Part shown: positions 26,165 to 46,286 of the stretch, piece by piece
How the letters are laid out: every line of letters begins with the position of its first letter
How positions within the stretch are numbered: the stretch's first letter is position 1
Assembly (NCBI GenBank): GCA_030066975.1
Contig: JASJAO010000004.1
Span: 186,001 to 250,000 of the forward strand
DNA from: Henriciella sp.
Lineage (GTDB): Bacteria > Pseudomonadota > Alphaproteobacteria > Caulobacterales > Hyphomonadaceae
DNA: 64,000 nt
Reading direction: 5' to 3'
Notes under the pieces: generated by a model
Seen by the model: only the letters and a program-made list of their open reading frames with translations
Told to the model about the DNA's origin: nothing
The model's database searches: none
Program-made: the position numbers and the translations under genes

Positions 26165-26344
26165 TCAGGCATCACTCGGGTCAGGTGCGCTCGGCACATC
26201 GTCGGCTTGATCCGCTGGACGCCCGGGAATCGCATAGCTGCCCTTGAGCCAGCGCGAGAGATCCACATCGGCACAACGCTTTGAACAGAACGGTTTGAAC
26301 CTCGGATCGACCGGTTTGATTTCACAGACCGCACATTTCTTCAT
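26165..26344 (-). CDS. yacG: YacG-family zinc protein (DNA gyrase inhibitor)
   Basis: 59 residues, from ATG at 26344 to TGA at 26165-26167. It has the YacG pattern: CAVC at residues 4-7, then FCSKRC at 19-24, giving a four-Cys zinc site, followed by DLSRWLKGSYAIPG. In E. coli YacG binds GyrB and blocks gyrase. It begins 2 bp after the end of the RNase E/G gene on the same strand, the common alphaproteobacterial order. Confidence 0.9.
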   Translation of the reverse strand: MKKCAVCEIKPVDPRFKPFCSKRCADVDLSRWLKGSYAIPGRPADQADDVPSAPDPSDA

Positions 26345-26346
26345 AT

Positions 26347-27396
26347 CTATCTCACCCTTACGGCATCGCTCTCATCGGAACTGCGCGCGATCTGAACCCG
26401 GCCACCGAAGCGATCCCGCAGGACCGAATCGCAAACCTCCTGTCGACGACAGTAGATGTCAAACACAGCCGGTGAAAGATCAATCCGAAAAAGGGCCGCA
26501 CCCTTGGCTGAGGCTTCACGGTCCACTTGGCGGAGCAGAGCCAGCAGGCGCGTTTCCGGTGTCGGCTGGCCGTCGGAACCCAGCATGCGATCATCGATGG
26601 GCGCGCGCCCCCAGGCAATTGCGGCCTGCAACAGACCAAACCTGGACGGTGCGATCACATCCAGACCTCTTGAACTCACCGACTGAAAGGCTGATCGAAA
26701 CGCCTTTGAGACCTCAGCGCCCGAAGAGCGGTTCAGCGGTGCAACACAATCGAGTACGATCAACCCGCCAAGATCCCGCAGCGCGCATTGACGCGCAGTT
26801 TCGATCGCCGCCTCACGGTTGATCGAAAGCGCCCGGGCGCCGGCACTGCCGCGCCCCTGGCGTCCTGATGTGTCGACGTCAATTGCGGTGAGGGCGCGAG
26901 TGCGTTCAAGATGGATCTGTCCCCCCTCCGGCAGGGTCACGGACGGCTCCATCGCAATGTCAAATGCGGTTTCTACTGTCGCCGGATCTGGCACCGTTTC
27001 CAGCTCGGATTGAACCGGCAAACTGGCTGCCCATACGTCATAAGGATCAACACCTTGGATCGGATCTTCTGTCCAGGTCGCACGCGCCAGTTTGTCCCGC
27101 CTGGCCTCTGCCTGAATGCGCGCGCGAACCTGCGCGCCTTCCGAGATATTGTCCGGCAACTGACCGGTCACCAGAACCGGCGCGCCGCTCTCCAACTCCG
27201 CAAACGTGCCGCCCTGGCTGCGATCCTTGTGCCGCAGTCGCGCATTCACCACATCGCCAACGTTCGCGACATCGAAGAGGCCCTGCCAACGGCGCTGAAA
27301 CAGTCGCCAGACCTTGCCCTCGCCATCTAAAGCCGCTGCGCGAAATTCCCCGGGTGCATCATGTGTGACAATCTTTGACAGCAATCCGGCACTCAC
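26347..27396 (-). CDS. Short ribonuclease E/G family protein
   Basis: 349 residues from a GTG at 27396 that overlaps the TGA of the preceding lipoprotein gene (GTGA). An ATG at 27444 is also in frame but would overlap that gene by 52 nt. The N-terminal third is a degenerate S1-like RNA-binding region. The RNase E/G catalytic part shows TAIDVDTS, with the metal-binding Asp, and RDLGGLIVLDCVAP, with the second Asp. The zinc-link CPxC and the long C-terminal scaffold of RNase E are absent. This shorter form is typical next to yacG. It is probably an RNase G-like endonuclease; activity is inferred. Confidence 0.8.
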   Translation of the reverse strand: MSAGLLSKIVTHDAPGEFRAAALDGEGKVWRLFQRRWQGLFDVANVGDVVNARLRHKDRSQGGTFAELESGAPVLVTGQLPDNISEGAQVRARIQAEARRDKLARATWTEDPIQGVDPYDVWAASLPVQSELETVPDPATVETAFDIAMEPSVTLPEGGQIHLERTRALTAIDVDTSGRQGRGSAGARALSINREAAIETARQCALRDLGGLIVLDCVAPLNRSSGAEVSKAFRSAFQSVSSRGLDVIAPSRFGLLQAAIAWGRAPIDDRMLGSDGQPTPETRLLALLRQVDREASAKGAALFRIDLSPAVFDIYCRRQEVCDSVLRDRFGGRVQIARSSDESDAVRVR

Positions 27397-27869
27397 TCCG
27401 GCTGGCAGGCGCGCACGCCAAGAATGGGCAGTTTGGTCTGCCATCCATCCGGATCCGTCACCGTGATCAGGCCTGCCTCGACGCGCTGGCCCCCGTTCAG
27501 GGTTTCGCCAGGTTGGAATGTCAGGGCCACTTCACTGCCATCACTGGCCGTATAGCCCATATCGGTGGTGAACTGACCGAAGATCGTGCCGCGAGAGCGC
27601 GATTGGGTGAGCCTCAGCTCCTCCTCCGCTGGCTTGAAAACCGCCGTTCCGCTCAAGGCTTTGCTGAAGAAGGCGAACCGGTTGGTGTCGGTCTTGCTCC
27701 AAAGAAACAGGCCGCACTCACCGGGCTCAAGCGACTGCGCCGACAGGCCGACACGGGATACAGTGTCCACAGCAGAGGCGTTTCGTGACCCTTCGCGCGT
27801 TTCAGGCGAACTCGCACACGCGGTCACAAGCAAGACTGCGCTCAACGCCCCGAGAACAGATTTCATCAT
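27393..27869 (-). CDS. Lipoprotein of unknown function at the end of the gsp operon
   Basis: 158 residues. The signal peptide ends in a lipobox, LVTAC, with the acylated Cys at about residue 18. The mature protein has a CGLFLWS-like start and a beta-rich middle (GTAVFKPAEEELRLTQS, MGYTASDGSEVAL). I recognise no named family. Its ATG overlaps the TGA of gspN (ATGA), and its TGA overlaps the next start, so it is translated as part of the gsp run and may be a secretion-related accessory. Confidence 0.65.
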   Translation of the reverse strand: MMKSVLGALSAVLLVTACASSPETREGSRNASAVDTVSRVGLSAQSLEPGECGLFLWSKTDTNRFAFFSKALSGTAVFKPAEEELRLTQSRSRGTIFGQFTTDMGYTASDGSEVALTFQPGETLNGGQRVEAGLITVTDPDGWQTKLPILGVRACQPE

Positions 27870-28612
27870 CGCACCATACCTCCGGACGCGTAACTGTAAG
27901 ACCAGACACCGTCTCGAAGTTGAAACTGCGCCGAAGACAGAACCAGAGGCAATTCGTCGTCATCAGTACGCACCTTCACGTCAACTTGCGCCGCCCCGAA
28001 CAGGGAAGCACGGGCATCAAGCTCCAATTCGTCGCCGCTTTGCGATTGGCCTTCGGCATCAAGGACAAATTGCCCATTTTCGCACGACAGGCGCCCCTCG
28101 ACCGGCCCGAATTCGCGGCCATAGGATTGGGCTGCGCGGCTGAGCACATCGCTTGTGAGGCGACCCCCAGCGGCCTCACATCCGGTTCGGGACAGCTCAA
28201 AGGACCCCGCCTGCAAGCGGACATCCCCGCCTGCGGCTCTCACGATCGGTGCGAGCCCTTCAATGGCTGAAATTTGCAACTGCGCCCTCATCTCACGCCC
28301 CTTGATCCGGCTGGGTCGAAGTTCGAGCACGCCAGTCCCACGGCCGCTCGCCCCGCCCCATTGAACATCATAGGCCAGCCCGCCGTACAGTATGGAGAGC
28401 GGCCGCAATTCAAGACTGACATCCCCGACAAACTGACCCGGTAAAAACAGGCCATCCACGCGGCCTTTTCTCAGTGTACCTTCGGCCTGGGCCCAACCAA
28501 TACCGGCACTGCCAAGACCGATGCGCGACAGCACAAAGCCCAGAGGGGTGAATAGCAAGGCCGACAATGCCAGTGTGAGCACAAAGATGATTGTCAGGAT
28601 GAGCGTCTTCAT
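27866..28612 (-). CDS. gspN: Type II secretion system protein N
   Basis: 248 residues. One N-terminal membrane anchor (ILTIIFVLTLALSALLFTPL) is followed by a periplasmic beta-rich domain, including SLELRPLSILYGGLAYDVQW, as in GspN. GspN is an optional inner-membrane part of the system with an ill-defined role. The start overlaps gspM by an ATGA. Identity rests on size, topology and its place as the last gsp gene. Confidence 0.8.
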   Translation of the reverse strand: MKTLILTIIFVLTLALSALLFTPLGFVLSRIGLGSAGIGWAQAEGTLRKGRVDGLFLPGQFVGDVSLELRPLSILYGGLAYDVQWGGASGRGTGVLELRPSRIKGREMRAQLQISAIEGLAPIVRAAGGDVRLQAGSFELSRTGCEAAGGRLTSDVLSRAAQSYGREFGPVEGRLSCENGQFVLDAEGQSQSGDELELDARASLFGAAQVDVKVRTDDDELPLVLSSAQFQLRDGVWSYSYASGGMVR

Positions 28613-29094
28613 TGCGGGCGCGTTCCTTCAAATTCAATGTTCGCGCGAATATTGCCGCCGCCTGCCTGTTCCATCGTCAAGCGGGCTACGCGGCCACCCA
28701 GTCGGGTTTCGACCTCCTCCAACCAGAAGAAGAAAATCCGCGGATCTGCACTGTCAAAGAGCAGGCTAATCGATCCATCTTCCCCGGTCTGCAAACGCGC
28801 AATAGCGAGGCCCTTGTCGCTCGCAGCCCGCGTAATCTCGGTCTTTAGCGCGTCTGTCGATGTTGCTGCGAGGTTTGCCGACAGGTCTTCAGGGCTGGCG
28901 CGCTGGCGGCCATAAGCTTCCTGAACGCGGGTGAGCACCGTTCGGGCCTGTGTGAGTTCAGCCCGAGCCCGGTCCTGCGCGGTGAATGTCGGGACGAGAA
29001 TGAACTGCCACAGGATAAAGAGCACCGTCAGCACCGCGGCAGTGCCGATCAACACACGCTCACGCGGCGCGAGATCATTCCACCAGGCGTTCAT
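28609..29094 (-). CDS. gspM: Type II secretion system protein M
   Basis: 161 residues. It has a short cytosolic start (MNAWWNDLAPRERVLIG), one membrane span (TAAVLTVLFILWQFIL), a coiled-coil part and a ferredoxin-like periplasmic domain, as in GspM. GspM binds GspL and GspC in the inner-membrane platform. ATGA overlaps link it to gspL upstream and gspN downstream. Confidence 0.88.
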   Translation of the reverse strand: MNAWWNDLAPRERVLIGTAAVLTVLFILWQFILVPTFTAQDRARAELTQARTVLTRVQEAYGRQRASPEDLSANLAATSTDALKTEITRAASDKGLAIARLQTGEDGSISLLFDSADPRIFFFWLEEVETRLGGRVARLTMEQAGGGNIRANIEFEGTRPQ

Positions 29095-30251
29095 TGCGGT
29101 GCCTCCAAGGTCAGCTCACCCACAATCACGGCCCCGCTCTGGCGCGCGTCCCCGACGCTGACGGTTAGACCTGACGTTTCGATCTTCGCAGAGATCAGAT
29201 CGATATTCTCATAGTCGGCAAACCCGATCCGGGCCGTCATTTGTCCGCGCTCGCGGTCGTACCGGACGCTTCGCAGCTCGGTATCCGGAACACTTTCTAT
29301 CGCTTCATAAAGCGCCGCCATGACGGTCAAGGCAGACGGCAGTTCAGCCCCAGGGGCTGCACGGCTCAGGGACGTTGACACAATGCGGGCTGCATTCCCA
29401 CCCGCCTCCGGCCAGCCGGCATTTACATATTCCACGGTCCGGGCTTCCAGTGCCTCAGCGCGCGCATTCAGACCATGCGTTTCCAGAAGTACAGACACGA
29501 ACCAACCAATGACCCCGATACCAATCATTGCCGCCAGCAACCGCCAGCGATTGAGCCCCGCGAGATCCATCGCCCGTCGGACCCGATAATCGCCTTGCCG
29601 CAAGTCGATCACGTCACGATCCTGCGTCCAGTCAATCAGTTGCAATAACAGCGCGTCTTCCGTGGCCAGGCCATCCTCGACGGGGCTTCGGTTCAACATT
29701 ACGGCCAGATCGTCGCCAGCGACATGCAAGTCAGTGACACCGTCCGCCAAACCGAGGAACACGTCACCTCCAATGCTCCGGTCCAATACGAAACTGCGAT
29801 CAGCGATACGGCCCAGCACGTACGCACCGGCTTGATGATAGCGATCACCGGCGGGCAGCACAGAATGGGCGGCCAACAGGGTGGCATCGCCCTGCCCCGC
29901 CGCCTTCAGTGCCTCCAGCCAAATGTCCATCTGCGCTCGCGACGCAATCAGGACTTCACGCTGCAGGCTGTTATCACGCGGAGGCGGGCCCAGCGCGACA
30001 TGCAGCTGCTCAACCGGTTCAGCGACGTCATCTTCAATGGCAAAAGGGGCGGCCAACCGCGCTTCGCGTTCATTGCGCGACGGGAAGGACGCCGTCATCC
30101 CACTTATGTCGGCCCCAAGCACAAACACTGCCAGTCGATTTCCAGCAGGGCCGGTGTCTGGAGCCGTCGCCGTGGTCTTCCACACGCCGTCACTCTTATC
30201 AGCGTAAAGCAACGATCCATCGTCGCGCAGGAGAGCGTAGACCTCCGCCAT
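29091..30251 (-). CDS. gspL: Type II secretion system protein L
   Basis: 386 residues. The cytosolic actin-like part, about 1-235, is the region that holds the GspE ATPase. A membrane span lies at about 243-265 (LLAAMIGIGVIGWFVSVLL), followed by a periplasmic domain (ELRSVRYDRERGQMTARIGF) resembling that of GspL. It begins 2 bp after gspK ends. It is somewhat divergent, but order and topology make the call firm. Confidence 0.88.
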   Translation of the reverse strand: MAEVYALLRDDGSLLYADKSDGVWKTTATAPDTGPAGNRLAVFVLGADISGMTASFPSRNEREARLAAPFAIEDDVAEPVEQLHVALGPPPRDNSLQREVLIASRAQMDIWLEALKAAGQGDATLLAAHSVLPAGDRYHQAGAYVLGRIADRSFVLDRSIGGDVFLGLADGVTDLHVAGDDLAVMLNRSPVEDGLATEDALLLQLIDWTQDRDVIDLRQGDYRVRRAMDLAGLNRWRLLAAMIGIGVIGWFVSVLLETHGLNARAEALEARTVEYVNAGWPEAGGNAARIVSTSLSRAAPGAELPSALTVMAALYEAIESVPDTELRSVRYDRERGQMTARIGFADYENIDLISAKIETSGLTVSVGDARQSGAVIVGELTLEAPQ

Positions 30252-30253
30252 GC

Positions 30254-31252
30254 TCAGCCGACTCTCTCGCGGCGCAAGGTTGTAATCGGCTGCCCGAGGC
30301 GCACATCGAAAAGAAGCTCTATCCGCATCATTTGTTCCCGATAGGTGAGTTCGGCGGAAACTTCTACAAATCTCGATACGACGTCGAGCCGTTCGGCTCG
30401 GATCAGCTCAGGCGCAATGGAGTTGATAAGAGGTTCGGTCAGAAAGTCTTCAACGGTAGACCAGCCGCCTTGTGGCCGCGAGGCAATCAGCTGCACCGCG
30501 TCTTCCACCTCAATCGCTCCAGACACGACATCGACCAGCAAAGGCGCCTCTTCCTCCTTTAGCGTATTGATGTTCAACACATTCGTTGCACCGTCCAAAT
30601 TCGCGGGTCTCGTACAGACCAGATCACGCAGCTCCGCGACCGTCTCGGCATCATAGTGACGAATGGCCCGCAGCTCGCTGATATCGTTCAGCATCAGGCC
30701 GGACGTTCGATAAGACGGCGTTAATCCGAGATAAAAAGAGTCTTCTGCGCCGCCCTGGCCGGCGAGCTGATCGTCATCCATCCAATCAACCAGGCTTGAC
30801 GTCAGCGCACTTGGGTCACCGCTTGGGAGCTGCAGCCGTTCGAGCAGACGCGTGTAATCTGCCATCGCCTCGACATTGGGCCGTAATTCATCCCGCTCGT
30901 CATCAAGTACGAGCGCGTTGAGATCGAAGCAGTTGCTGGCGTCGCTGACGATATAGGCGATTAGACCACCTTCCACGGCCTGTGTCTGAACTTCATCCAA
31001 GCCGGACATGCCAGCCACGAGTTTACCCTCGATCTGGTCCCGCGTTGCATCGATCTGCGATTTGACAGCCTCCTCCGCCGCAACCGCGTAGAAACGAAGC
31101 TGGCTCTGTCCATCCAGGGCACGGGCCCGCTGCGTCGCGGAACTGACCGCTTGGGTCAGGGCCAAGGCCACCGACGACATGGCCGCAACAATCATCAGGA
31201 CGGTGACCAGCGCAGCGCCGCGATCAGGTCGGGAGGCAGGCGCTCGGCTCAT
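30254..31252 (-). CDS. gspK: Type II secretion minor pseudopilin K
   Basis: 332 residues, the length of GspK, which caps the pseudopilus. The prepilin site is RG-AALVTVLMIVAAMS; position +5 is Thr, not Glu, as is usual for GspK. The large inserted domain has DWMDDD, typical of the SAM-like/metal part, and LNINTLKEEEAP followed by a helix-hairpin-like segment. It overlaps gspJ by ATGA. Confidence 0.92.
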   Translation of the reverse strand: MSRAPASRPDRGAALVTVLMIVAAMSSVALALTQAVSSATQRARALDGQSQLRFYAVAAEEAVKSQIDATRDQIEGKLVAGMSGLDEVQTQAVEGGLIAYIVSDASNCFDLNALVLDDERDELRPNVEAMADYTRLLERLQLPSGDPSALTSSLVDWMDDDQLAGQGGAEDSFYLGLTPSYRTSGLMLNDISELRAIRHYDAETVAELRDLVCTRPANLDGATNVLNINTLKEEEAPLLVDVVSGAIEVEDAVQLIASRPQGGWSTVEDFLTEPLINSIAPELIRAERLDVVSRFVEVSAELTYREQMMRIELLFDVRLGQPITTLRRERVG

Positions 31253-31875
31253 GAGCGTCCCCCCGTCAGCGCCGCGATGGTCATCCGCGTCTCGTTGGCG
31301 AACACGATCTCAAGCTCGATCAGGTCGGGCACGACGTTCAAAGCCTGCCCGGCATCGCCGATCCATTCGACCGACCATTCGCCCCCGCGACGAAAGCGCG
31401 TCCTGACCATCTCGACATCCTGCAAGAGGACTTGTTCTGCGCGATCTGTAGCATCGGTCGCATCCGGTCGCAGTGTGGCCGAACGGATCAGCTGACCGTC
31501 CTCAAGGCGATAGGACACAGCCTGCAACTGGCTTCGCGCCTCAAGCTGTCCGGGATTGAGCCATCCTGACCGAACGAAACTCAGGAATGGACGCACGCCA
31601 TAACTATCTTCACCAAACACATTGCCAGGCCGACTAAAGCCATCGTCTGGACGGATCGCACGTATGGAGAGCGCCGCGATGTCATTGCGGATCATGGCCT
31701 GCGCCACATCAAGCTGGCGGGTTTGCTGTTCGCGTGATTGGACCTGCTTCTGCGTTTGCGTTGCGCCGAGGAGCAATGCGCCCCCTGCAGCGGAAACCAT
31801 CGCAAGCACGAACAGCGCGACGAGCGTTTCAACCAGCGTGAACCCGAGCTGCGAAGAGGATGACTGTGGGGTCAT
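31249..31875 (-). CDS. gspJ: Type II secretion minor pseudopilin J
   Basis: 208 residues. The prepilin motif LG-FTLVETLVALFVLAMVSA has Gly at -1 and Glu at +5 for processing by the prepilin peptidase encoded at 44825-45361. The C-terminal beta-rich domain is of GspJ length. It overlaps gspI and gspK by ATGA junctions. Confidence 0.92.
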   Translation of the reverse strand: MTPQSSSSQLGFTLVETLVALFVLAMVSAAGGALLLGATQTQKQVQSREQQTRQLDVAQAMIRNDIAALSIRAIRPDDGFSRPGNVFGEDSYGVRPFLSFVRSGWLNPGQLEARSQLQAVSYRLEDGQLIRSATLRPDATDATDRAEQVLLQDVEMVRTRFRRGGEWSVEWIGDAGQALNVVPDLIELEIVFANETRMTIAALTGGRS

Positions 31876-32345
31876 TCCTCATCCTCGCTATCTGCAGGCG
31901 AAGCACCTGGCTCTTCGCCTGTAACCTCGCCGTCCAGCCCGGAGTCTTCCGAGACGTCCTGCACCGGCAACGGGATGGCTTTCAGACTGACAAGGCGCGT
32001 AAGAACTTGCGGCCGGTCTTCCTGGCGCACCGTCATCTCGAGCGATTGGGTCTCTCCCGGCACGGCCGGGCCAGCGACCAGCGTCCATTCAAAGGCGCGT
32101 TCAAGCTGGCGCGAAATCCCGGTGCTCAACCCGGCATCCAGCGGTTCGCGCTCTGACATGACGTAGGACATCTCGTTTTCTGCCACCATTCTGGCGAGCA
32201 ACCTTGTCTCCAGTCGCCCGGTATTGTTGGCGGCATCGCCTGCAACCTGCATCAGGGGCAAAGCGGCAATTGCCAGCACCGCCATGGCCGCAACGGTCTC
32301 AACGAGACTGAATCCTGCTTCGGAGGGCAGTCTAGGGACGGTCAA
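31872..32345 (-). CDS. gspI: Type II secretion minor pseudopilin I
   Basis: 157 residues from a TTG at 32345. No ATG is available; the TTG has a strong GGGGAGG site 6 nt upstream, lying inside the end of gspH. An in-frame TTG at 32369 lacks such a site. The prepilin motif is EAG-FSLVETVAAMAVLAIA. GspI is a core tip pseudopilin. The C-terminal tail after about residue 125 is unusually acidic (Glu/Asp/Ser-rich) for the family. Confidence 0.88.
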   Translation of the reverse strand: MTVPRLPSEAGFSLVETVAAMAVLAIAALPLMQVAGDAANNTGRLETRLLARMVAENEMSYVMSEREPLDAGLSTGISRQLERAFEWTLVAGPAVPGETQSLEMTVRQEDRPQVLTRLVSLKAIPLPVQDVSEDSGLDGEVTGEEPGASPADSEDEE

Positions 32346-32802
32346 TGCGAACCTCCCCGTTCGGCTCAATCGTCAGGTCGATATCGGTCTGTCGAGCGCG
32401 AACAGTAATCGTTGCAGGATCCACCAACCCTGTCGGGTCAAATACCAAATCCGGCCACGCGTCCGGACGCGTGATCTGTTGGTCGTACGATATTTCGACG
32501 TCGACCTGGTCGGGCAAGAGCTCGGGTCGTCCACGTTCAACCCAGATCGGGTCACGCCAAACAGAAAGATCAAGAACCTGATCCTCGACAAGTAATCCGA
32601 CCGGTTGCCCGGTGAATATGGCCTGATCACGTGCCTGCGCGATAACACGAGACAGATATTGCGCTGTCGACTCCGGTTCGCCGCGGCGATCTGGCAGTGT
32701 CAGGACCACCAGGCTGGTTGTCAGGCCGATGATAAACACCACCATCATCACCTCAACCAGGGTCATGCCCGATTGGGTCGATATGTGAGGTCCGCTACGC
32801 AA
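32332..32802 (-). CDS. gspH: Type II secretion minor pseudopilin H
   Basis: 156 residues from a TTG at 32802. The leader is short, with the prepilin motif SG-MTLVEVMMVVFIIGL (Met at +1, Glu at +5). The rest is beta-rich and matches GspH in length. Its last 14 bp overlap gspI and carry that gene's ribosome binding site. It starts 11 bp after the end of gspG. Confidence 0.88.
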   Translation of the reverse strand: MRSGPHISTQSGMTLVEVMMVVFIIGLTTSLVVLTLPDRRGEPESTAQYLSRVIAQARDQAIFTGQPVGLLVEDQVLDLSVWRDPIWVERGRPELLPDQVDVEISYDQQITRPDAWPDLVFDPTGLVDPATITVRARQTDIDLTIEPNGEVRIDRP

Positions 32803-32813
32803 TCTCGTCTCGA

Positions 32814-33266
32814 CTACCAGTTACCAATATCTGCGTTCAGCTCTTCACCGCCTTCGGCGCCGTCAGCGCCAAGGGAGTAAAGGTCGAAAGCGCGACCGGA
32901 TTTGTCGCCGGGACGTTCATACACGTACGCCTGCCCCCACGGATCTAGCGGGAGCTTGGCGATATAGCCTCCGGTTCGATAGGTCGTGGCCTCTGACACG
33001 TCGTCAGGCGCCGTGACCAAAGCCTCAAGCCCCTGCTGCTCAGAGGGATAGTCGAACATGTCGAGACTGTACTGCTCCAGCGCATTTGACAGTGTCTGGA
33101 TGTCCGCCCGCGCCTTGGTTTCCCGCGACTGCCCAACCACGCCGCCAATATTGATCAGTACGGCGGTTGAGAGCAGTCCAATGATGAAGACAACGACCAT
33201 AATCTCAGTCAGGGTAAAACCGCCCTGTTTTCTAAGACGCTTCAGCTTCTTCTTGTCCATATTCAT
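32814..33266 (-). CDS. gspG: Type II secretion major pseudopilin
   Basis: 150 residues from the ATG at 33266; an ATG 6 nt on is the alternative. A basic leader (DKKKLKRLRKQGG) precedes FTLTEIMVVVFIIGLLS, with Gly at -1 and Glu at +5. The GspG core follows: ALEQYSLDMFDYPSEQQGLE, then LPLDPWGQAYVYERPG and FDLYSLGADGAEGGEE, which carries the calcium-site residues. GspG polymerises into the pseudopilus that pushes substrates out. Confidence 0.95.
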   Translation of the reverse strand: MNMDKKKLKRLRKQGGFTLTEIMVVVFIIGLLSTAVLINIGGVVGQSRETKARADIQTLSNALEQYSLDMFDYPSEQQGLEALVTAPDDVSEATTYRTGGYIAKLPLDPWGQAYVYERPGDKSGRAFDLYSLGADGAEGGEELNADIGNW

Positions 33267-33270
33267 CTGA

Positions 33271-34482
33271 TTAAGCTCCAATGGCGAGTGAATTCAGTTG
33301 CAGAATGGGTAGCATGATGGCGAGCACGATCAGTGCAATCACGCCCGCAAGCAACACGATGAGCAAGGGCTCGACCAGGCCTAGGGCCACCGTGGCGTTG
33401 CTGTCCAATTCGTCTTCCATATAGTCGGCGGCCCGGCCAACCATGGCGGGCAGATCGCCGCCGCGCTCGCCACTGGCAATCATGTGGACGAGCATCGGCG
33501 GGAACACACCTGTGGCTCGCATGGCATGGTGCAGAGGCTGGCCCTCTTCGACCTGTTGGCGGACATCTTTTGCGGCCTGTCGGAAGACCTCATTGCCGAC
33601 GGAGCCGCGTGCAGCAACGAGCGCATCGGGAACGGTCGCGCCGCTGCTCGACAGGGTCGCAAAAGTCCGCGCAAACTGGGCGGCATTGACACTGCGAAAC
33701 ACTTTTCCCAGCAGCGGCAGGCCAAGCACGAACTTGTCCCAGCCAACTTTGACAGCTGGGTTTGCGAAAATCTGCCGGACCCCCCAGCCGATGCCGATCA
33801 ACAAAGGGACGACTAGGATCCCCCAGGACCGCAGAAACCCGGAAATCGCGATCACCGCTTCAGTCAGGGGTGGCAGATCCTCTCCAATCGTGTCGAATTG
33901 CTCAACCACGGCCGGGACAACAAAGATCATCAGCAGCGCGACAACCACCATTGCGACGCAGGCAAGAACCGCAGGATAGATAAGCGCGGACATGAGTTTA
34001 CGTTTCAGCTTGCGCGATTTCTCCAAATGCGTTGCCAGCCGTTCCAACACGTCCCCCAGACGTCCTGAGGCCTGCCCGGCCGAGACAACAGCGCGGTAGT
34101 ATGGCGGAAAGGAGCGCTGTTCCCGCGCCAGAGCTTCCGCCGGGGAGAAGCCTTCCTGCACACCGCCACGAACATTCATCAAAACGCGACGCGCGGCTTG
34201 CTTATCGGTTTGTCCGGCAATCGCGCCTAGGGCTTCTTCCACCGTTGAGCCGGAGCGAACCAGCATCGCCAATTGGCGGGTCACGAGAACAAGATCGCTT
34301 CCGGAAATGGAGCCCCCTCTTTGAAACTGAGAGGTTTTTCTCTCTTTGGCCTGCGCGACATTGAGCGGTGACAGCTGGCGCAACCGTAATTCCTTGCGTG
34401 CCGCCCGCGCAGAGTCCGCTGTGATGACACCGCTTTGCCGTTTGCCATCAGCGCCGACCGCGACATAGTCGAACACGGCCAT
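33271..34482 (-). CDS. gspF: Type II secretion inner-membrane platform protein F
   Basis: 403 residues, full length. Two homologous GspF domains are seen, with FARTFATLSSSGATVPDAL marking the second, and three membrane segments at about 170-195, 220-240 and 375-398. GspF is the polytopic platform that works with GspE. The start ATG lies 2 bp after the gspE stop. Confidence 0.95.
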   Translation of the reverse strand: MAVFDYVAVGADGKRQSGVITADSARAARKELRLRQLSPLNVAQAKERKTSQFQRGGSISGSDLVLVTRQLAMLVRSGSTVEEALGAIAGQTDKQAARRVLMNVRGGVQEGFSPAEALAREQRSFPPYYRAVVSAGQASGRLGDVLERLATHLEKSRKLKRKLMSALIYPAVLACVAMVVVALLMIFVVPAVVEQFDTIGEDLPPLTEAVIAISGFLRSWGILVVPLLIGIGWGVRQIFANPAVKVGWDKFVLGLPLLGKVFRSVNAAQFARTFATLSSSGATVPDALVAARGSVGNEVFRQAAKDVRQQVEEGQPLHHAMRATGVFPPMLVHMIASGERGGDLPAMVGRAADYMEDELDSNATVALGLVEPLLIVLLAGVIALIVLAIMLPILQLNSLAIGA

Positions 34483-34484
34483 CG

Positions 34485-35978: not shown

Positions 35979-35981
35979 CGG

Positions 35982-37996: not shown

Positions 37997-38007
37997 AACT
38001 GCGCGCC

Positions 38008-38910: not shown

Positions 38911-39012
38911 TGCGATTTCTCTTACAACACAAATGAGGCGACGCCGAGTGGTCGCCCCTTTCTATACAACTATTGGTGGCGTTACCGTTATTAATTATCA
39001 AACAGGCGGACT

Positions 39013-41613
39013 CTAGAAGATTTTCTTAAGACCAACAGACAAGATTGTGCCCTGTTCATAACTGTCGACTGTAATGCGATCGGACCCACGTTCCTGATAG
39101 GCATCATAGCCTTCACCGAAAATGTTCTGAGCACTGAAGCTGAGTTCATACTCACCGCCTCGAATTTCGAGGCCCTTATTCAGCACGAAATCAACCGTTG
39201 CGGGTGGCTCTTCGATGATCGCGGGCAGGTCTCGTGCGACGGTTTCGGCGGTCCGGATCCGTTCACTCGCATAGTTGAACAGCAGGTTCGCATCGAGATC
39301 GGCATCTGGATCGGTATAGATCAGCTGCAGGTTAAACAGGTGTTCTGACTGACCCTGCAAGCGACGACCATCTTCGATCCGACCGTCTGCGGGGGTTTCC
39401 CCACGCACCGGAGACAGAGGTGTACCCACGTTGATCGCAACATCTCCATCGGCGCTGACCTCTGAATCCGACCAAGTGTAGTTGGTTTTCACACTGAATT
39501 CATTGTCGCCCAGAAACGTCCAACCAAACCAGTCTTCAAAATCGAGAACCTGCTCATATTCGACCTCAACGCCGTACAGCTCTGCAGCAGGCGCATTGAG
39601 GAAGGTCGTTTGCACATTCTCAGTTGGAACGATGATTTCTTCAATCGGATTGACCATGTCCTTGTAGAACAGGCCGATCGTGAAGAACTGGTCCCGGGCA
39701 AAATAGTACTCAAACCGCGCGTCGAAATTCTCGATCTCCGCGTTCTCGAGATACGGGTTCCCGAAGAAGGTTACGTCGGTTTCCGTGTTCACAAAGATCG
39801 CGGGGGCGAGTTCGCGGAACTGTGGGCGCGTAATCGTCTGGGAGTAGCCAAAGCGAACCTGTAAATCATCAATCGGGTTCCAGGTGATGGTTGCGGCAGG
39901 CAGAAAGTCTGACTCTTCAATTACGCCTTCAACAACATTGTCAGCGAGGTCACCGCCAATGTCACGCGTGTCGACGGCCTGGATCGCATCCTCATATCGC
40001 CCGCCTATGGCAGCGCGGATGTAAGGCGTAATTTGCGCATCGAGACCAACATAGGCCGCATCGATTTCGAGTGTTGCGACATAGAATTGCGGGAAGACGT
40101 TACTTCCCACTTCAATCACAGAACCGGTACCTGCATTGAAGATTGAAGCATACGCAAAGTCGTTCCGCAGCGTATTTGTCGTCCCGTCAATGCCCAGAAT
40201 ACCGTAAAGCAAGCTGGTCGCGTTGCGATCATTCTCAACGTAGGAATAACCGGCTTTCAGCTCGACTTCACAAAGATAGACACACTCACCGCTGGTGTTT
40301 TCAAACGGTAATGTGCCGTCGATACCGAAGTCAGTTGTATCATCATCCACCCGAGAGAACTGGAACTCGTTGCCGCTGGATGTGCCTTGAAGGAAGTACT
40401 CGCCAGTCGATTCGTTGAGCTGATAAATATTGGTCAGCTGATAGGGCGCATCCCGCAATGCTTCGGAGTACGAACCACGCCACTCCACTTCGAGGTTCTG
40501 AAGGTTCGGGAAATAGTGTTGCCCGGTGACCTGGGTGGTCCAGAGTTGGCGCTCAAACCATTCGAGATTATCGGTACGGATCGGCGTATCTTCCTCGTTC
40601 ACGCCCTCAGTAATCCGCGCTTCCTTCTCAGTTGAACGCGTAATCAGGCCCGTGAACTGGATCTCATGGTCATCATAGATATCGAAACCGATCGCAGCGA
40701 GCGCATTCAGGCCAATCGTGTTTTCTGTACTGCGGCGATCAAAGTCAAAGAACTGTCCGAGACCGGTTCCGGTGTTGATGGCAAATCCTCGGCGGCCTTC
40801 TCGTGTCACCCAACTGTTGCTGTAGCCGAGAGAGCCAATCATACCAACGGACAGGTCTGCGTTAACATCGAAACGCTCGCCGCCCGTGATACCGAAATCA
40901 AAGTTTGGGCCAACCTCGCCTTCCTGCATGACGAGCAGAGAGGAATCGTCTGTCAGTTCCTGTCCAAACGTTGGGGTCAAACCCTCAGCAAGGCTCGGGC
41001 GGTCCCGCGTGCCATCATCAAAGCCGAGAAAGTCGGTATCGCCGCCATCATAGAGCAAGCCGTCCTGAAAGCTGGTCACGGTGTTGATGCCACCGCCAAT
41101 GGAAACTTCCAGGAAACGGCTGTCCGGGATGGCCTTGGTGCGAATATCGACCATACCCCCGCCAAACTCACCCGGCAAATCTGGTGAATAGGTCTTCTGG
41201 ACGAGGATCGATTTCAAGGCTGAGGTTGGGAACAGATCCAGCGGCGCAACCCGGCGCAATGGCGCGGGGGACGGCAGCGGTGACCCATTCAGCAGAGCGG
41301 TCGAATATCGCTCGTTCAAACCACGAACATAAATGAAATTGTCTTCAGATGTCGCGATGCCCGCAACCCGAGATAGCGCCGCCGCCGCATCGGAGTCGCC
41401 CTGCAGCGTAAAGTCGCCTGCGTCGATCAGATTGGCGACCTCGGATGTATTGCGAACCTCGTTCGGGATAAACTCACCGCGAACGATGATCGTCTCCTGG
41501 CGCGCTTCTTCTTCAACTTCAACTGGCTCTGTCTCCTGAGCCTGAGCGAGATTGAGTGTTGCGAAACAGGCACCTGTGAAAAGGACCGAGCGAAGAATGG
41601 ATGAGCGCGTCAT
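39013..41613 (-). CDS. TonB-dependent receptor next to the T2SS
   Basis: 866 residues. The signal peptide ends near residue 26 (AQAQE). The plug domain includes IYVRGLNERYSTALLNG and LKSILVQKTYSPDLPGEFGG. A 22-strand barrel follows and ends in a terminal Phe (VGLKKIF). Such receptors take up ligands too large for porins; the ligand is unknown. The gene lies downstream of a large repeat lipoprotein gene and upstream of gspC, all on one strand, so the three may work together on a polymer or a phosphorylated or metal-bound substrate. No Fur or Zur box was seen in the 100-bp gap upstream. Confidence 0.9.
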   Translation of the reverse strand: MTRSSILRSVLFTGACFATLNLAQAQETEPVEVEEEARQETIIVRGEFIPNEVRNTSEVANLIDAGDFTLQGDSDAAAALSRVAGIATSEDNFIYVRGLNERYSTALLNGSPLPSPAPLRRVAPLDLFPTSALKSILVQKTYSPDLPGEFGGGMVDIRTKAIPDSRFLEVSIGGGINTVTSFQDGLLYDGGDTDFLGFDDGTRDRPSLAEGLTPTFGQELTDDSSLLVMQEGEVGPNFDFGITGGERFDVNADLSVGMIGSLGYSNSWVTREGRRGFAINTGTGLGQFFDFDRRSTENTIGLNALAAIGFDIYDDHEIQFTGLITRSTEKEARITEGVNEEDTPIRTDNLEWFERQLWTTQVTGQHYFPNLQNLEVEWRGSYSEALRDAPYQLTNIYQLNESTGEYFLQGTSSGNEFQFSRVDDDTTDFGIDGTLPFENTSGECVYLCEVELKAGYSYVENDRNATSLLYGILGIDGTTNTLRNDFAYASIFNAGTGSVIEVGSNVFPQFYVATLEIDAAYVGLDAQITPYIRAAIGGRYEDAIQAVDTRDIGGDLADNVVEGVIEESDFLPAATITWNPIDDLQVRFGYSQTITRPQFRELAPAIFVNTETDVTFFGNPYLENAEIENFDARFEYYFARDQFFTIGLFYKDMVNPIEEIIVPTENVQTTFLNAPAAELYGVEVEYEQVLDFEDWFGWTFLGDNEFSVKTNYTWSDSEVSADGDVAINVGTPLSPVRGETPADGRIEDGRRLQGQSEHLFNLQLIYTDPDADLDANLLFNYASERIRTAETVARDLPAIIEEPPATVDFVLNKGLEIRGGEYELSFSAQNIFGEGYDAYQERGSDRITVDSYEQGTILSVGLKKIF

Positions 41614-41668
41614 TGGCGTAACCCCTGATTTTTCGGCGCAAAGGCCGAAACAAAATAGTCAAAACGGG

Positions 41669-41696
41669 AAAAAGCAGGGCGCAGACTCGCCCTGCT
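41669..41696 (-). terminator. Intrinsic terminator after the repeat lipoprotein gene
   Basis: On the minus strand AGCAGGGCG-AGTCTG-CGCCCTGCT forms a 9-bp stem followed by TTTT. It lies 18 bp after the lipoprotein stop and before the TonB receptor ATG. Read-through would allow lower expression of the receptor. Confidence 0.8.
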
Positions 41697-41713
41697 TCTC
41701 CGAATTTCCAGAC

Positions 41714-44608
41714 TTAGTTGCTGGTTTCAGCGCCAGTCTGATCAACGGTCCAACCCAGGAACCAATCGTCGTCAGCGTCAGCCACAGCCCCGATATAGGT
41801 GGTTGGCTCGAGCTCTCCGATGCCAGTCACGTCAAACACAGGAACGGCCAGCTCGTTGGTGCCCGGCACAACTCCGTTGCGACCGGTCTGGAAGGTAAAG
41901 CCACCCAGTGTGATTGGCTCGCCTGTCACGATGTTTGCCGTTGCTGGGAAGGCTGGAACGGTCACGCCGTCGCCTGCCTCATCAGTTGGTGACTCTACGT
42001 CGTCCCCATTGCCACTGAGGAAGAAGGATTCAACGACGAGGCTGCCATCACCGAGATTGTCGACGGTCGCCTGGCTATCGATGTCCAGACCCGCATCTGG
42101 CCAGCCCACAGCAATCGTATTCACGACAGTACCCGCCATACCGCGGCGCAGAACTGCACCAGTGTCTGTGGCGGCGTCACCTGAGTTGATTAGCGTGATG
42201 TTGGAGACACGCGGTGTGGAGACCGGCGTTGCGGTATTGTTGGAAGACAGGTTGTCGCCTTCGATCCCCCGTGGGTCCCCAGACAGAGCCCCGGTTGCAT
42301 CTGTGAGCCCTGGATACGCGATGCCGTACTGCAGAGACCCCTGCCAGCCATCGGTCCAATCAAAGCTGTCATCGCCGACACCGAGCGCGATCAGGTTTGT
42401 GGCAGAGACCGTGCCGCCAAACCACTCGAACGCATCATCCAGATTGTTATAGACCTGAATGTTCTGCAGCTCGGTTCCGGAGCCGACACCTTGCAGCGCC
42501 AGACCGTTCAGCTCGTCATTATTGGTCAGGCGAACGCCTGCATACTGAATGCGTGTGAAGAAGATCTGTCCAGAGTCGTCGTCGGCCGTTGCACCGCCGA
42601 AGAGGCCTGAGGCACCTTCACCTGATTTCTCACAATCAACGGTTCCGCCAACAGCAGCACCGCCGTCACAGGCGTTGATCGGGGCGCGGCCATTGACCAC
42701 GATACCACCCCAAAGGCCCTTTGTGTTGGCATTCACTGTGGCGTCGGAGCCATCAAAGGCCCCCTTGGCCGTGAACACGACCGGGTCTGATGCTGTGCCG
42801 TTTGAGAAGATCTGCGATCCACGTGTGATCACCAGGTAGTCATCATTGCCTTCAGACACGACGGTAACACCGGCGTCAATCGTGATTGAAGTTTGAGCGG
42901 AACCTGCGAGCGGCGCAGCTGGATCTGGACCCGCATCAACGCCGATGAAGACCGGCTCGACCAGTTCGTAGACGATCTGATCGCCATTGGAGAGACGCAG
43001 ATTGCTCGTGATGGCGTTGGACCCATCAATCTGACACAGCAGTTTTTCGGTGCTGGTTGCTGCCTCAACAATCGTACCGGCATCCATCGTGCCAGTTGGA
43101 CACTCCGCTGGGTCTGTCGGTACCAATGTACCCGGCAAGGCGAAATTAGCCCAGCTTGCGCCATTGCTTTCTGTTGCTGAAAACGCACCGACATAGTCCG
43201 CAGGCATCAGGCCCGTTGGCGTCGCTGCCGCTGGGAAGTTCGCTTCTGCTGTACCTGGAAAAACAACATCAATCAGCGAGTTGTTGTAAGCCGTTACATT
43301 GTCAGCGGGATCAAATGCGGGGACGCCGTCTGAGTCTGTTGCGAACGGCGTTGGCGCATCAATCGCGATCGACGAGAAGGTCAGCTCACCATTTGTGAAA
43401 TTGGTGAAGGTCTGTGTTGAATCGACATCCAGACCGACCGGGAAGCCGGCGAGCACGCCGTTGACGAAATTACCTTTGGTTCCGCGGCGAATAACAGCCC
43501 CGGCATTATTCTCGTCCACGCCCACGAGCGTGAAGTTGGCAATGGTCGGTTCGGAGAACGGTTCTGCAGCATTATTTGAAGACAGGTTGTCACCTTCAAT
43601 ACCGCGAGGATCACCAGACGTTGGGATGTTAGAGCGCACGGCGGCGAATTGCAGTGTCCCCGTCCAGCCATCTGTCCAGTCGATCGAATCGTCACCGGCG
43701 CCTGTGACCACGGCATAGTTGACGTTCACAGTCCCACCGAACCACTCAATCCCGTCGTCCAGGTTGTTGTGGACCTGAATATAGTTGACCTCAGTGCCGC
43801 TACCGACACCCTGGAACGCAATTCCGTTCAACTCGTCATTGTTGGTCAGGCGCGCGCCCGCATACTCGACGATAACATAGTTAAGTGAGCCGGAGTCATC
43901 CAATGGGTCGTCACCGCCAAAGAGACCAGAAGCCCCTTCACCTGTCTTCTCACACTCTGCAGTTCCACCCGTCGCAGCGCCGTCACAGGCGTTGATGGGC
44001 GCGAAGCCGTTGATGACCAGGCCGCCCCATTGGGCGTTGGAGGTCTCGGAAATGATCGATGTGCCGACCTCTTCGTCGTTAATAGCCGCGCGCGAGGTGA
44101 AGCGGATGGGCGCTGCTTCTGTACCAGAAGCTTCAATCGCAGAGCCGCGCGTAATCACCAGATAGTCATCCGTTGCGTTTGCGGAGCCGCCTGAGGACGC
44201 CCCAAAGAAGCGGACGCCTTCTCCAATTGTCAGAACGGCGTTTGCACCGCCATCAGTTCCGACAAATACAGGACCCTGGATCGCGATGGTTGAATTCGCA
44301 GGGATGGTCAGGTCTGAGTTAATGTTCGTTTCACCGCTATCAGATCCAATCGAACATACGTCGACATCCGAAAATCCATCAGCCGCAACAGCTGCAAATG
44401 TCGTCTCGGTTGTGCCGGTTGGACAGCCCGAAGCCGGGACCAGGTTGATTGTCGAGGGAGCCGGTGCCGGATCCGGATCAGGCGCCGGCGCAGGGTCCAC
44501 GATCGTTTCCGCGCCGGGCGAGGCGATATCCGTGTCCGAACAACCTGCAAGCGCCAATACCGCAGCACTCGCCATAATTGCATAACGCAGGTTCCCTGCT
44601 TTTCTCAT
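41714..44608 (-). CDS. Large surface lipoprotein with two beta-helix-like repeats
   Basis: 964 residues. A lipoprotein signal ends in LALAGC (Cys23), followed by a Pro/Asp/Ala-rich linker to about residue 52. Two homologous units follow, roughly 62-490 and 503-960, each opening with CPTGT. Shared blocks include DYLVITRGS (148/590), WGGLVING or WGGIVVNG (194/633), APINACDG, GEGASGLFGG, LTNNDELNG (254/696), GVGSGTE, NNLDD-x2-EWFGGTV, WTDGW and GDPRGIEGDNLSSNN. The short strand periodicity suggests a right-handed beta-helix. It is probably exported and anchored to the outer membrane, perhaps exposed by the neighbouring T2SS, and partnered by the TonB receptor. The function is unknown; polymer binding or hydrolysis is a guess. 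A good AGGGGG site precedes the ATG. Confidence 0.8.
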   Translation of the reverse strand: MRKAGNLRYAIMASAAVLALAGCSDTDIASPGAETIVDPAPAPDPDPAPAPSTINLVPASGCPTGTTETTFAAVAADGFSDVDVCSIGSDSGETNINSDLTIPANSTIAIQGPVFVGTDGGANAVLTIGEGVRFFGASSGGSANATDDYLVITRGSAIEASGTEAAPIRFTSRAAINDEEVGTSIISETSNAQWGGLVINGFAPINACDGAATGGTAECEKTGEGASGLFGGDDPLDDSGSLNYVIVEYAGARLTNNDELNGIAFQGVGSGTEVNYIQVHNNLDDGIEWFGGTVNVNYAVVTGAGDDSIDWTDGWTGTLQFAAVRSNIPTSGDPRGIEGDNLSSNNAAEPFSEPTIANFTLVGVDENNAGAVIRRGTKGNFVNGVLAGFPVGLDVDSTQTFTNFTNGELTFSSIAIDAPTPFATDSDGVPAFDPADNVTAYNNSLIDVVFPGTAEANFPAAATPTGLMPADYVGAFSATESNGASWANFALPGTLVPTDPAECPTGTMDAGTIVEAATSTEKLLCQIDGSNAITSNLRLSNGDQIVYELVEPVFIGVDAGPDPAAPLAGSAQTSITIDAGVTVVSEGNDDYLVITRGSQIFSNGTASDPVVFTAKGAFDGSDATVNANTKGLWGGIVVNGRAPINACDGGAAVGGTVDCEKSGEGASGLFGGATADDDSGQIFFTRIQYAGVRLTNNDELNGLALQGVGSGTELQNIQVYNNLDDAFEWFGGTVSATNLIALGVGDDSFDWTDGWQGSLQYGIAYPGLTDATGALSGDPRGIEGDNLSSNNTATPVSTPRVSNITLINSGDAATDTGAVLRRGMAGTVVNTIAVGWPDAGLDIDSQATVDNLGDGSLVVESFFLSGNGDDVESPTDEAGDGVTVPAFPATANIVTGEPITLGGFTFQTGRNGVVPGTNELAVPVFDVTGIGELEPTTYIGAVADADDDWFLGWTVDQTGAETSN

Positions 44609-44824
44609 GATCGCCCCCTTAGAGCTTGTCGAAAGAATCCATTACAATTTGCACAGGCCATCCTCCGGACGCCCGATGGCGGTGCCTTATGCACACGAAA
44701 AAGACACTTTTTTTACAGTCACAAAAGCTTCGTTTTTGAGCGACGTCACGCCCGGATCAAATGCTACATTTTTGTGATATTCGTATACGGAACTTAATTT
44801 TGTCCGGTCTCGGATGTTTTTGAT

Positions 44825-45361
44825 TTAACTGGAAAAAACAGGTTTGAAACACCAGACAGACCAAATCGCCAGTGATAACAAAGGGCCGAACGGAATGTAG
44901 GATGTGGAAGGCCTTTCCGCACGTCTCAGACCACTCACCAAAACGAGCATCAAACCGAGTCCGGAACCCAGCAGCAAGGTTAACGGAATGTTATACATGC
45001 CAACCCACGCACCACCGGCTGCGAAAAGTTTTGCGTCACCGAGTCCGATGCCTTCCCGACCGATCCTGAGCTTCCAGAAATAATGCAAACCAGCCAGCAG
45101 CGCATAACCAACGATTGCCCCGATAATCGATTCGGATATCGAAGCGCCATACCACCAGGCCTGAATCAGTCCGAAGGCGATGAGCGGTAAGGTGAGCCAG
45201 TCCGGAAGCAGGAAGCGGTCCAGATCGATCCAAGACAAGATTAACATCCCGATGCCAAGGACAAACGTCGCGCCCGCCAAGCGCCACTCAAAAATAGCAA
45301 ACCGATCAGCAATCAGAAGCGCTAATGCAAAGGCGACGACCAAAGCGGCGAACAACACCAC
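44825..45361 (-). CDS. gspO: Prepilin peptidase (A24 family), GspO role
   Basis: About 178 residues if started at the GTG at 45361. An in-frame ATG at 45472 would overlap the upstream gene by 74 nt and add a basic stretch with no membrane character. Six hydrophobic segments are visible. The two catalytic aspartates of A24 enzymes lie in SWIDLDRFLLPD and in GREGIGLGDAKLF. The N-terminal zinc/methylase domain of E. coli GspO is absent, as in the shorter A24 forms. It should cleave the leaders of GspG-K encoded downstream. The exact start is unsure. Confidence 0.85.
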   Translation of the reverse strand: MVLFAALVVAFALALLIADRFAIFEWRLAGATFVLGIGMLILSWIDLDRFLLPDWLTLPLIAFGLIQAWWYGASISESIIGAIVGYALLAGLHYFWKLRIGREGIGLGDAKLFAAGGAWVGMYNIPLTLLLGSGLGLMLVLVSGLRRAERPSTSYIPFGPLLSLAIWSVWCFKPVFSS

Positions 45362-45398
45362 CGTCTCGCGGCGCTCGCGCCTGGGAAAAGGAAACGGT

Positions 45399-46286
45399 TC
45401 ACTCAGGTGTCTCTCCCGTCCACCCTGCGTTTGCCATCGCTTCCTCAAGCGGGATCTGCAACAGCTGGCCATCCCGGGAGAAGAAGAAGGTTTGCCCATC
45501 CAGACTGACGCCGGCGCCGAGTTCCGGCTTTTCAGTATTCACCGGCGGGCCGATGTTTACCGGATCCCCCCAGATGCCGTTCTCATCGCGAGACGTCATC
45601 CAGATGTCCACATAGCCGAGTTTTGGCTGGCGATAGGTATAGAAGAACAGGTGTTGTCCGTCCGGCGTGACGCCGATCTGCGCGTCAGCCCGTCTGCTAT
45701 TGATCCCATCCGGCATTTTCAGCACGGTCCAATCGTTGAGCGCTTCATTCCAACGGGCCTCGTAAATGTCGTGTCCACCTGCACCATCTGAATGGTTGGA
45801 CGTGTAGTAGAGGCGGCCAGCCTCATCCATCACCGGGCTGAGCTCTGAGGCACCAGTGTTCAAAGCGTCCGACAACGGCTCCGGCTCGCCCCACCCCGTT
45901 TCAGTCGGCAAGACCCGCCAAAGGTTTGGATCATTTCCGCGCCCCCGCGATTCCAGCAAGGCATTTGAAGAGTAATACAGATACCCGTCGAACGGACTGA
46001 ACGACGCCTCACCCACAAAGCCCTGTGTAGGCCATCCAGTGATTTCCGTAATCTCAGACCAATTTCCGTCGGCATCCTGGCGCATTTCGAACAGAAGCGT
46101 CAGGTCGCCGCGCTCCTGCGTCCAAACCCGGTGCATTTTGTCAGCAGACTCTGTGTAGCTGTACATCCGATTAAACGGCCCCGGTAGCTCCATATCGGGG
46201 AAGATGGCGGACTCGCCGACCGGTGGCGCGTCTTGTGCACCGCAGGCACTGATCAGCAGAACCCACCCCAGAACCACACCACGCAT
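45399..46286 (-). CDS. PD40 beta-propeller lipoprotein
   Basis: 295 residues. The signal peptide ends in LISAC (lipobox, Cys15). PD40/WD40-like repeats follow: SFSPFDGYLYYSSN, PVMDEAGRLYYTSNHSDG, GVTPDGQHLFFYTY and GVSLDGQTFFFSRDG. Such propellers bind partners or glycans and resemble the N-terminal part of TolB-like proteins. It sits just upstream of the prepilin peptidase gene on the same strand and may belong to the secretion cluster. Confidence 0.8.
   Translation of the reverse strand: MRGVVLGWVLLISACGAQDAPPVGESAIFPDMELPGPFNRMYSYTESADKMHRVWTQERGDLTLLFEMRQDADGNWSEITEITGWPTQGFVGEASFSPFDGYLYYSSNALLESRGRGNDPNLWRVLPTETGWGEPEPLSDALNTGASELSPVMDEAGRLYYTSNHSDGAGGHDIYEARWNEALNDWTVLKMPDGINSRRADAQIGVTPDGQHLFFYTYRQPKLGYVDIWMTSRDENGIWGDPVNIGPPVNTEKPELGAGVSLDGQTFFFSRDGQLLQIPLEEAMANAGWTGETPE

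Follow-up and report, generated by a model that had tools for sequence, protein, structure and literature searches.

An ElpS-type lipoprotein, its TonB-dependent receptor and their changing secretion partners in Alphaproteobacteria

In Caulobacter, the surface lipoprotein ElpS is encoded by elpS (cc0170), which is grouped with a gene for a TonB-dependent receptor (TBDR; cc0171) and the gspC-N genes of a type II secretion system (T2SS), and excerpts of the 2010 paper by Le Blastier et al. report a similar organisation for Hyphomonas neptunium, Sphingomonas alaskensis and Xanthomonas campestris (PMC2996285). Here, we analyze the corresponding lipoprotein, receptor and T2SS genes in a 64,000-nucleotide stretch of DNA from Henriciella sp. 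(contig JASJAO010000004.1, positions 186,001 to 250,000); the whole of this stretch is referred to as the window. The original prediction for the window regarded the receptor pairing as undescribed, which does not hold, because the 2010 text already names cc0170 and cc0171 together with the T2SS genes and lists three more species. The arrangement in the window is the known elpS-cc0171-gspC-N arrangement and is not new, and the locus is a two-lobed member of the ElpS-receptor-T2SS module.

Production of Caulobacter ElpS is induced by phosphate starvation, and its release requires the T2SS, perhaps via a secreted protease; ElpS is still found on the cell surface when gspC-N are deleted (PMC2996285, in excerpt). 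According to a 2024 paper, the T2SS of Caulobacter is among the members of the PhoB regulon (PMC11208175, in excerpt). In Xanthomonas, genes for a TBDR and hypothetical proteins lie upstream of xcsC in the xcs T2SS cluster, a region regarded as an island, and the xcs T2SS is nearer to the Caulobacter T2SS than to xps (PMC2585010, in excerpt).

With Caulobacter, the window shares the order of lipoprotein, TBDR and gspC-N. The Caulobacter lipoprotein, however, has one lobe of about 500 amino acids, whereas that of the window has two, and the prepilin peptidase gene gspO is found upstream in the window, but downstream of gspN and on the opposite strand in Caulobacter. The xcs locus of the gammaproteobacterium Xanthomonas likewise has a TBDR and hypothetical genes upstream of xcsC, but its lipoprotein is one-lobed, with 506-510 amino acids in most Xanthomonas loci. 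A lipoprotein gene also adjoins a TBDR gene in surface systems such as SusCD and TbpAB, and the pair in the window would likewise act jointly; the predicted beta-helix of the window's lipoprotein is unlike SusD or TbpB.

The two-lobed lipoprotein and its receptor

The minus strand of the window is transcribed in the order PD40 lipoprotein, prepilin peptidase, 964-amino acid lipoprotein, TBDR and gspC to gspN (38910-27866). Open reading frames (ORFs) and family matches bear out the original prediction that gspC-N form an operon preceded on the same strand by a TBDR, a 964-residue lipoprotein and a prepilin peptidase; the gspC-N operon is complete and, together with the prepilin peptidase, provides the core genes of a T2SS.

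The 964-amino acid protein (41714..44608, minus strand) is an ElpS-type outer-membrane lipoprotein with two tandem beta-helix lobes, as judged from its lipobox, the lobe alignment, an AlphaFold model and the Caulobacter homologue. Like the ElpS family, it is homologous to the Caulobacter lipoprotein and has a LAGC-type lipobox and genes for a TBDR and gspC-N directly downstream. Its LAGC lipobox ends at Cys23, and that of ElpS is located at residues 17-20 (PMC2996285, in excerpt). Lobe 2 is 36% identical (218 bits) to the homologue of Caulobacter vibrioides T5M6 (L040), which was used for this comparison instead of the ElpS sequence of strain CB15N. The lobes extend approximately over residues 56-477 and 495-943 and are 43% identical to each other over 463 columns (E = 1e-99). 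An AlphaFold model derived from 21 two-lobed proteins (mean pLDDT 86, pTM 0.62) predicts a parallel beta-helix in each lobe, and the double repeat that had been noticed earlier is thus confirmed. When compared with solved right-handed beta-helices, lobe 1 reaches Z scores of up to 22.4 (root-mean-square deviation 3.2 over 279 residues) and lobe 2 a Z score of 21.9 (3.7 over 282 residues). These structural matches have 7-15% identity and unrelated functions, none of them common. Foldseek global scores for the model are weak, perhaps reflecting a different relative placement of the two lobes. The lipoprotein has no match in Pfam, NCBIfam or PHROGs, no NCBIfam model matched the Caulobacter relative, and a sequence search of solved structures returned nothing useful. 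In its own genome, the lipoprotein has a single match.

Directly after the lipobox, the window's protein contains an [IV]xSPG motif that is also present in 13/13 rows of alignment A2 covering this part. These rows come from both T2SS-bearing and T2SS-less genomes, and the motif is therefore unlikely to be a T2SS signal; it could be a signal for surface sorting or for contact with the receptor. The receptor itself, a TBDR of 866 amino acids (39013..41613, minus strand; PF00593, PF07715), is the partner of the lipoprotein and CC0171-like by its position. Its other matches in the same genome are weak (E 3e-11 or worse).

In four genomes from the window's own family (G021, G031, G036 and G075), the lipoprotein has one lobe, the receptor is less similar and gspD scores above that of the window, as if the module had been replaced as a whole.

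A constant pair with changing secretion partners

Among 150 genomes of the window's order, the lipoprotein was found in 115, the receptor (E 1e-40 or better) in 113 and a T2SS gspD (above the T2SS cut-off) in 115. The receptor gene is located directly downstream of the lipoprotein gene and on the same strand in 109 of the 112 genomes that contain both; in the other three, a split hit places one receptor 2 kb off, and two have the genes on different contigs. Of the 113 receptor genomes, 83 have the T2SS gspD no more than 5 kb from the receptor, 19 have it elsewhere and 11 lack it; the values of 83 and 19 include a second receptor piece of G080 (split by a contig end) beside gspD and would otherwise be 82 and 20. 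Downstream location on the same strand accounts for 78 of these 82 nearby gspD genes, and four are placed otherwise; G131, which has lipoprotein matches, was left out of the linkage count. Since the pair is kept in 109/112 genomes while gspD is nearby in 83/113 and absent in 11, the lipoprotein-receptor pair is the constant unit. The expectation that the pair tracks with gsp genes is supported by the adjacency of gspD in most receptor genomes of the order, but not by the 11 genomes that have the pair without a T2SS.

The presence of the T2SS and of the pair are associated (103/12/12/23, Fisher p = 2.9e-10, uncorrected for relatedness), with a T2SS gspD but no pair in 12 genomes and neither in 23. 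The 80 best matches among named records, a non-random set, include 77 with a readable receptor, which is accompanied by a T2SS in 64, by a type IV secretion system (T4SS) in three, by neither in six and by a contig end in four. Linkage of lipoprotein, receptor and T2SS is also real in the best-matching named Xanthomonadales records.

In the T2SS-less genomes of the order that contain both pair genes, a VirB-type T4SS adjoins the pair in 11/11 cases. Of the 12 T2SS-less genomes with a lipoprotein or receptor, 10 encode VirB4 at a distance of 2.1 to 5.3 kb from the pair. In G062, the eleventh, a contig end truncates the receptor, and the contig with virB1-virB4 starts with the C-terminal part of a receptor; the twelfth (G038) has a lipoprotein match and no receptor at the threshold. 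Conversely, among the matches listed, none of the 103 genomes with T2SS and pair has this T4SS within 10 kb, and at least 12 have one elsewhere; one of these 12, the T2SS-bearing G149 with 470 contigs, is unjudgeable, because its receptor and its virB operon both run off contig ends. These distances are based on VirB4 matches with E 2.7e-39 or better, comprising 34 rows from 32 of at least 89 genomes with any match. The Fisher value for T2SS absence versus T4SS linkage (9e-13) ignores relatedness and is not to be relied on. No VirB4 was found in the genome of the window.

A second sample of 398 genomes of the phylum yielded the lipoprotein in 51, 43 of which have a gspD at E 1e-60 or better. 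In seven of the remaining eight (G003, G022, G234, G273, G277, G394 and G488), VirB4 is encoded 2 to 5 kb from the lipoprotein; the eighth, G249, belongs outside the class and has no VirB4 beside the lipoprotein. Six genomes of family f9, one of which has a T2SS as well, repeat the linkage of pair and T4SS. This family is probably sphingomonad, because the receptor tree places it next to records of Sphingomonas and Sphingosinicella. We found no description of a lipoprotein-TBDR pair beside a VirB T4SS in the open-licence literature, which was covered mostly at title and abstract level.

In representatives of these loci, VirB1 (SLT), VirB2, VirB3, VirB4, VirB6, VirB8, VirB9, VirB10 and VirB11 were recognized by Pfam or NCBIfam models. 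Of 16 fetched stretches, 15 contain the series virB1-2-3-4-6-9-10-11 as judged by homology, and the sixteenth (L172) ends after virB8; in family f3, VirB8 is encoded within the operon. In 17 genomes, no coupling protein VirD4 (PF02534) was detected in the vicinity of the pair-linked T4SS, although for two of them (G048 and G082) the near flank is incompletely seen, as the contig stops inside the operon or shortly behind it; in 7 of the 17, VirD4 was found nowhere at all. This distinguishes the operons from conjugative or effector VirB/VirD4 systems, which have VirD4 at the locus. T4SSs without VirD4, such as Ptl or the VirB system of Brucella, take their substrates from the periplasm, like a T2SS. 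The relatives' loci resemble these in having no adjoining coupling protein, but differ by adjoining a lipoprotein-TBDR pair and by the failure to find VirB8 in 6/17.

The orientation of the T4SS operon relative to the pair varies. In family f3, lipoprotein, receptor and virB1-virB11 follow each other on one strand; in G022, G086 and the six f9 genomes, virB1 is divergent from the lipoprotein gene, and in G096 and G131, virB11 is convergent with the receptor gene. In a receptor tree of 77 rows, calculated by a quick method, the T4SS state requires at least five changes that are forced by well supported branches, and the T4SS-type pairs of Phenylobacterium group with T2SS-type pairs of their own family. 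Removal of near-identical entries reduced the set behind this tree from 117 to 81 and then 77 rows, and four contig-edge rows are excluded from it; L050 was counted as T4SS, because the longer stretch L159 shows the operon. A VirB4 tree divides the pair-linked operons into three groups, placed among T4SSs located elsewhere. Independent contrasts show T2SS absence and T4SS linkage together in 4/4 informative pairs. A simple replacement of T2SS by T4SS in place was considered for Phenylobacterium and rejected, as the two ORFs shared by the flanks of G037 and G022 are positioned elsewhere relative to the pair.

Several genes accompany these operons. Four f3 stretches (L162, L163, L167 and L168) have genes for DUF1800 and DUF1501 proteins next to the pair-linked T4SS. 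Such genes also accompany T4SSs of this family that are located apart from the pair (L197, L199 and L203) or in a genome without it (L204); another three stretches (L200-L202) contain neither. DUF1501 proteins, which we take to be alkaline phosphatase-like with a Tat-type signal, and DUF1800 proteins are possibly a cargo pair of the T4SS. The polyphosphate genes ppk and ppx follow virB11 in 4/6 f9 loci (L160, L161, L164 and L170). A search of the 120 pair loci L037-L156, many of which have short flanks, gave no match to the DUF1800, DUF1501, ppk or ppx proteins. A 186-amino acid ORF after virB11 in G022 looked spurious and was discarded.

Phosphate context and explanations for the linkage

Outside the class, in genomes presumed to be Gammaproteobacteria, 20 of 21 lipoprotein-bearing genomes have a T2SS-type gspD, which lies on a different contig or at a distance above 200 kb in all 19 genomes with a best gspD row listed; the position of gspD in G466 is not among the matches listed, and G249 has no gspD at E 1e-60. 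The original prediction would be refuted by pairs that occur mostly away from T2SS genes, and this is what the sampled genomes outside the class show, in contrast to the order with gspD adjacent in 83/113. In 13 stretches from these genomes, families were assigned by model for L137, L138 and L148 and by clustering for the rest. Genes for DUF3450 and two ExbB-type proteins adjoin the pair in four of them, three of which (L137, L140 and L148) encode TonB as well, while the fourth (L139) ends early; L144 has an ExbB-type gene beside the pair. In two stretches (L138 and L148), the pair is adjoined by phoB-phoR-pstS. Thus, the pair exists without a linked T2SS, in some cases together with phosphate or TonB genes, and judging from gene neighbourhoods its context in several lineages points to phosphate.

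With modest confidence, we favor the view that the lipoprotein and the receptor are a phosphate-scavenging pair served by interchangeable secretion machines. The beta-helix lipoprotein on the surface and its own TBDR would bind and import a nutrient, which most likely contains phosphorus. The neighbouring machine would export periplasmic enzymes that free this nutrient, or release the lipoprotein; it would usually be a T2SS, and a VirB T4SS without adjoining VirD4 in the sampled T2SS-less Alphaproteobacteria. The family, the predicted fold, the linkage and the repeated change of secretion partner are results of the present analysis; the nature of the nutrient, its binding and import and the task of the T4SS are inferred. 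The secretion machine would not carry the lipoprotein to the surface: because ElpS remains surface-located in the Caulobacter gspC-N deletion, exported enzymes or a releasing protease are the more plausible substrates.

We consider it improbable that transport of the large lipoprotein to the surface is the task of the T2SS itself, in a pullulanase-like manner, and of the T4SS in T2SS-less genomes. The occurrence of the T4SS beside the pair in all 11 genomes of the order that have both genes and no T2SS would fit such a role, as would the toxicity of overexpressed ElpS in the absence of the T2SS (PMC2996285, in excerpt), but it conflicts with the surface location of ElpS in the gspC-N deletion and with the genomes outside the class, where gspD is distant in 19 and not found at E 1e-60 in G249. 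The suggestion that the T2SS displays or releases the lipoprotein is therefore retained only for release, for which Caulobacter provides the precedent; display driven by the T2SS is also unsupported in view of the persistence of the pair in T2SS-less genomes, where the lipoproteins that were read also have a lipobox (from crude start calls).

Where the T2SS has been lost, a VirB T4SS that has no VirD4 and, in some groups, no recognizable VirB8 either may stand in for it and export folded periplasmic proteins for phosphate scavenging, with the DUF1501 and DUF1800 proteins as candidate cargo; the pair would then plug into two unrelated export machines. We propose this tentatively, as possible rather than probable. 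The proposal is based on the use of periplasmic substrates by VirD4-less T4SSs, in the same way as by the T2SS.

Alternatively, the linkage could be nothing but inherited proximity on an island that carries the pair and a secretion operon without joint function. Transfer of the whole module is likely, as the Xanthomonas xcs cluster resembles that of Caulobacter and has been called an island (PMC2585010, in excerpt), and some genomes of the window's family have the different, single-lobed version beside a higher-scoring gspD. The 12 genomes with a T2SS but no pair, and the T2SS located elsewhere in about a sixth of the receptor genomes, point in the same direction. Bare inheritance, however, would not lead one to expect linkage of the pair to an unrelated machine several times and in differing orientations, nor the association between T2SS and pair described above, and we consider mere proximity unlikely.

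Finally, the lipoprotein could be an enzyme, such as a beta-helix lyase or phosphatase, rather than the binding partner of the receptor. Its predicted fold is common to lyases and epimerases, and overexpression of ElpS raises alkaline phosphatase activity in Caulobacter; yet ElpS was inactive as a phosphatase after refolding or immunoprecipitation in the experiments excerpted (PMC2996285), and the fold matches are scattered over unrelated functions at low identity, which makes an enzymatic role very unlikely in our view.

Several observations weigh against a phosphate-scavenging pair with interchangeable machines. According to the same excerpts, cc0171 is expressed constitutively, its deletion leaves ElpS production unsuppressed and no change in intracellular phosphate was detected in Caulobacter (PMC2996285). 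No Pho-box-like site was found upstream of the window's lipoprotein with a consensus of the Escherichia coli type, and matches to this consensus in the window are at chance level (15 versus 13.2 expected). In seven of the 13 stretches from outside the class, the pair has no phosphate-regulon genes and no TonB/ExbB genes as neighbours. The independent contrasts comprise only four informative pairs and do not reach significance (sign test p = 0.125), and strict exclusion is broken by G300, in which the T4SS adjoins the pair and gspD is present as well (E = 1.4e-113). In addition, VirB8 was found nowhere in 6 of the 17 T4SS genomes, even though VirB1-4, 6 and 9-11 are kept, so that this T4SS may be degenerate or unusual.

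The secretion operon, its flanks and wider implications

All genes of the gsp operon are located on the minus strand. GspC (38008..38910) exceeds the Pfam cut-off (PF11356), but remains below the NCBIfam cut-off. The secretin GspD (36074..38011) is recognized by TIGR02517 with 516 bits versus a cut-off of 351, and is one of two secretin matches in the genome. The ATPase GspE (34485..35978) matches TIGR02533 with E = 3.9e-189 and 629.3 bits, 1 bit under the cut-off of 630.25. It is followed by gspF (33271..34482; PF00482, TIGR02120), the genes for the major pseudopilin GspG (32814..33281; PF08334, TIGR01710), GspH (32332..32802; PF12019), GspI (31872..32369; PF02501), GspJ (31249..31875; PF11612) and GspK (30254..31252; PF21687, PF03934), and by gspL (29091..30251; PF12693, PF05134), gspM (28609..29094; PF04612) and gspN (27866..28612; PF01203). 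Calculated from the first possible ORF starts, 7 of the 11 pairs of adjacent gsp genes share 4 to 38 bases, and the other four have gaps of 2 to 95 bases.

The prepilin peptidase gene gspO (44825..45499, minus strand; PF01478), whose true start is probably further downstream, is the only one of its kind in the window, as had been claimed: a tblastn search of the window with the prepilin peptidase returned only itself. A gspO homologue is present in 6/120 loci of relatives.

The propeller lipoprotein predicted upstream is indeed present (45399..46286, minus strand; PF07676), but no counterpart was found in the 120 loci of relatives, many of which have short upstream stretches; it is a neighbour and at most a candidate member of the module. 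This PD40 lipoprotein also gave partial matches to models of the type IX secretion protein PorE and of OmpA-like proteins, far below the cut-offs. On the 3' side of gspN, the minus strand contains ORFs at 26347-27444 and 27393-27869. One is a lipoprotein-like ORF of 158 amino acids without a Pfam or PHROGs family, and the other is RNase E/G-like, with a match that covers just part of the RNase E/G family. Neither has a counterpart in the 120 loci of relatives, many of which stop short of that region. Module membership of the PD40 lipoprotein, the 158-amino acid lipoprotein and the RNase E/G-like ORF is therefore unsupported in these loci with their often short flanks. A second TonB receptor-like protein of 720 amino acids with long His/Asp/Glu-rich stretches is encoded on the plus strand (22316-24478) and presumably resembles a zinc receptor of the ZnuD type.

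The lipoprotein belongs to a widespread family that has no Pfam or NCBIfam model, and a name and a fold for this family would aid annotation. Provided that the exchange of one secretion machine for another has a functional meaning, the lipoprotein-receptor pair would be the constant part of the system, and the role of the T2SS in nutrient scavenging by Alphaproteobacteria could be tested against T4SS-bearing relatives. Under the same premise, the exchange suggests that, for periplasmic cargo, a T4SS is able to substitute for a T2SS.

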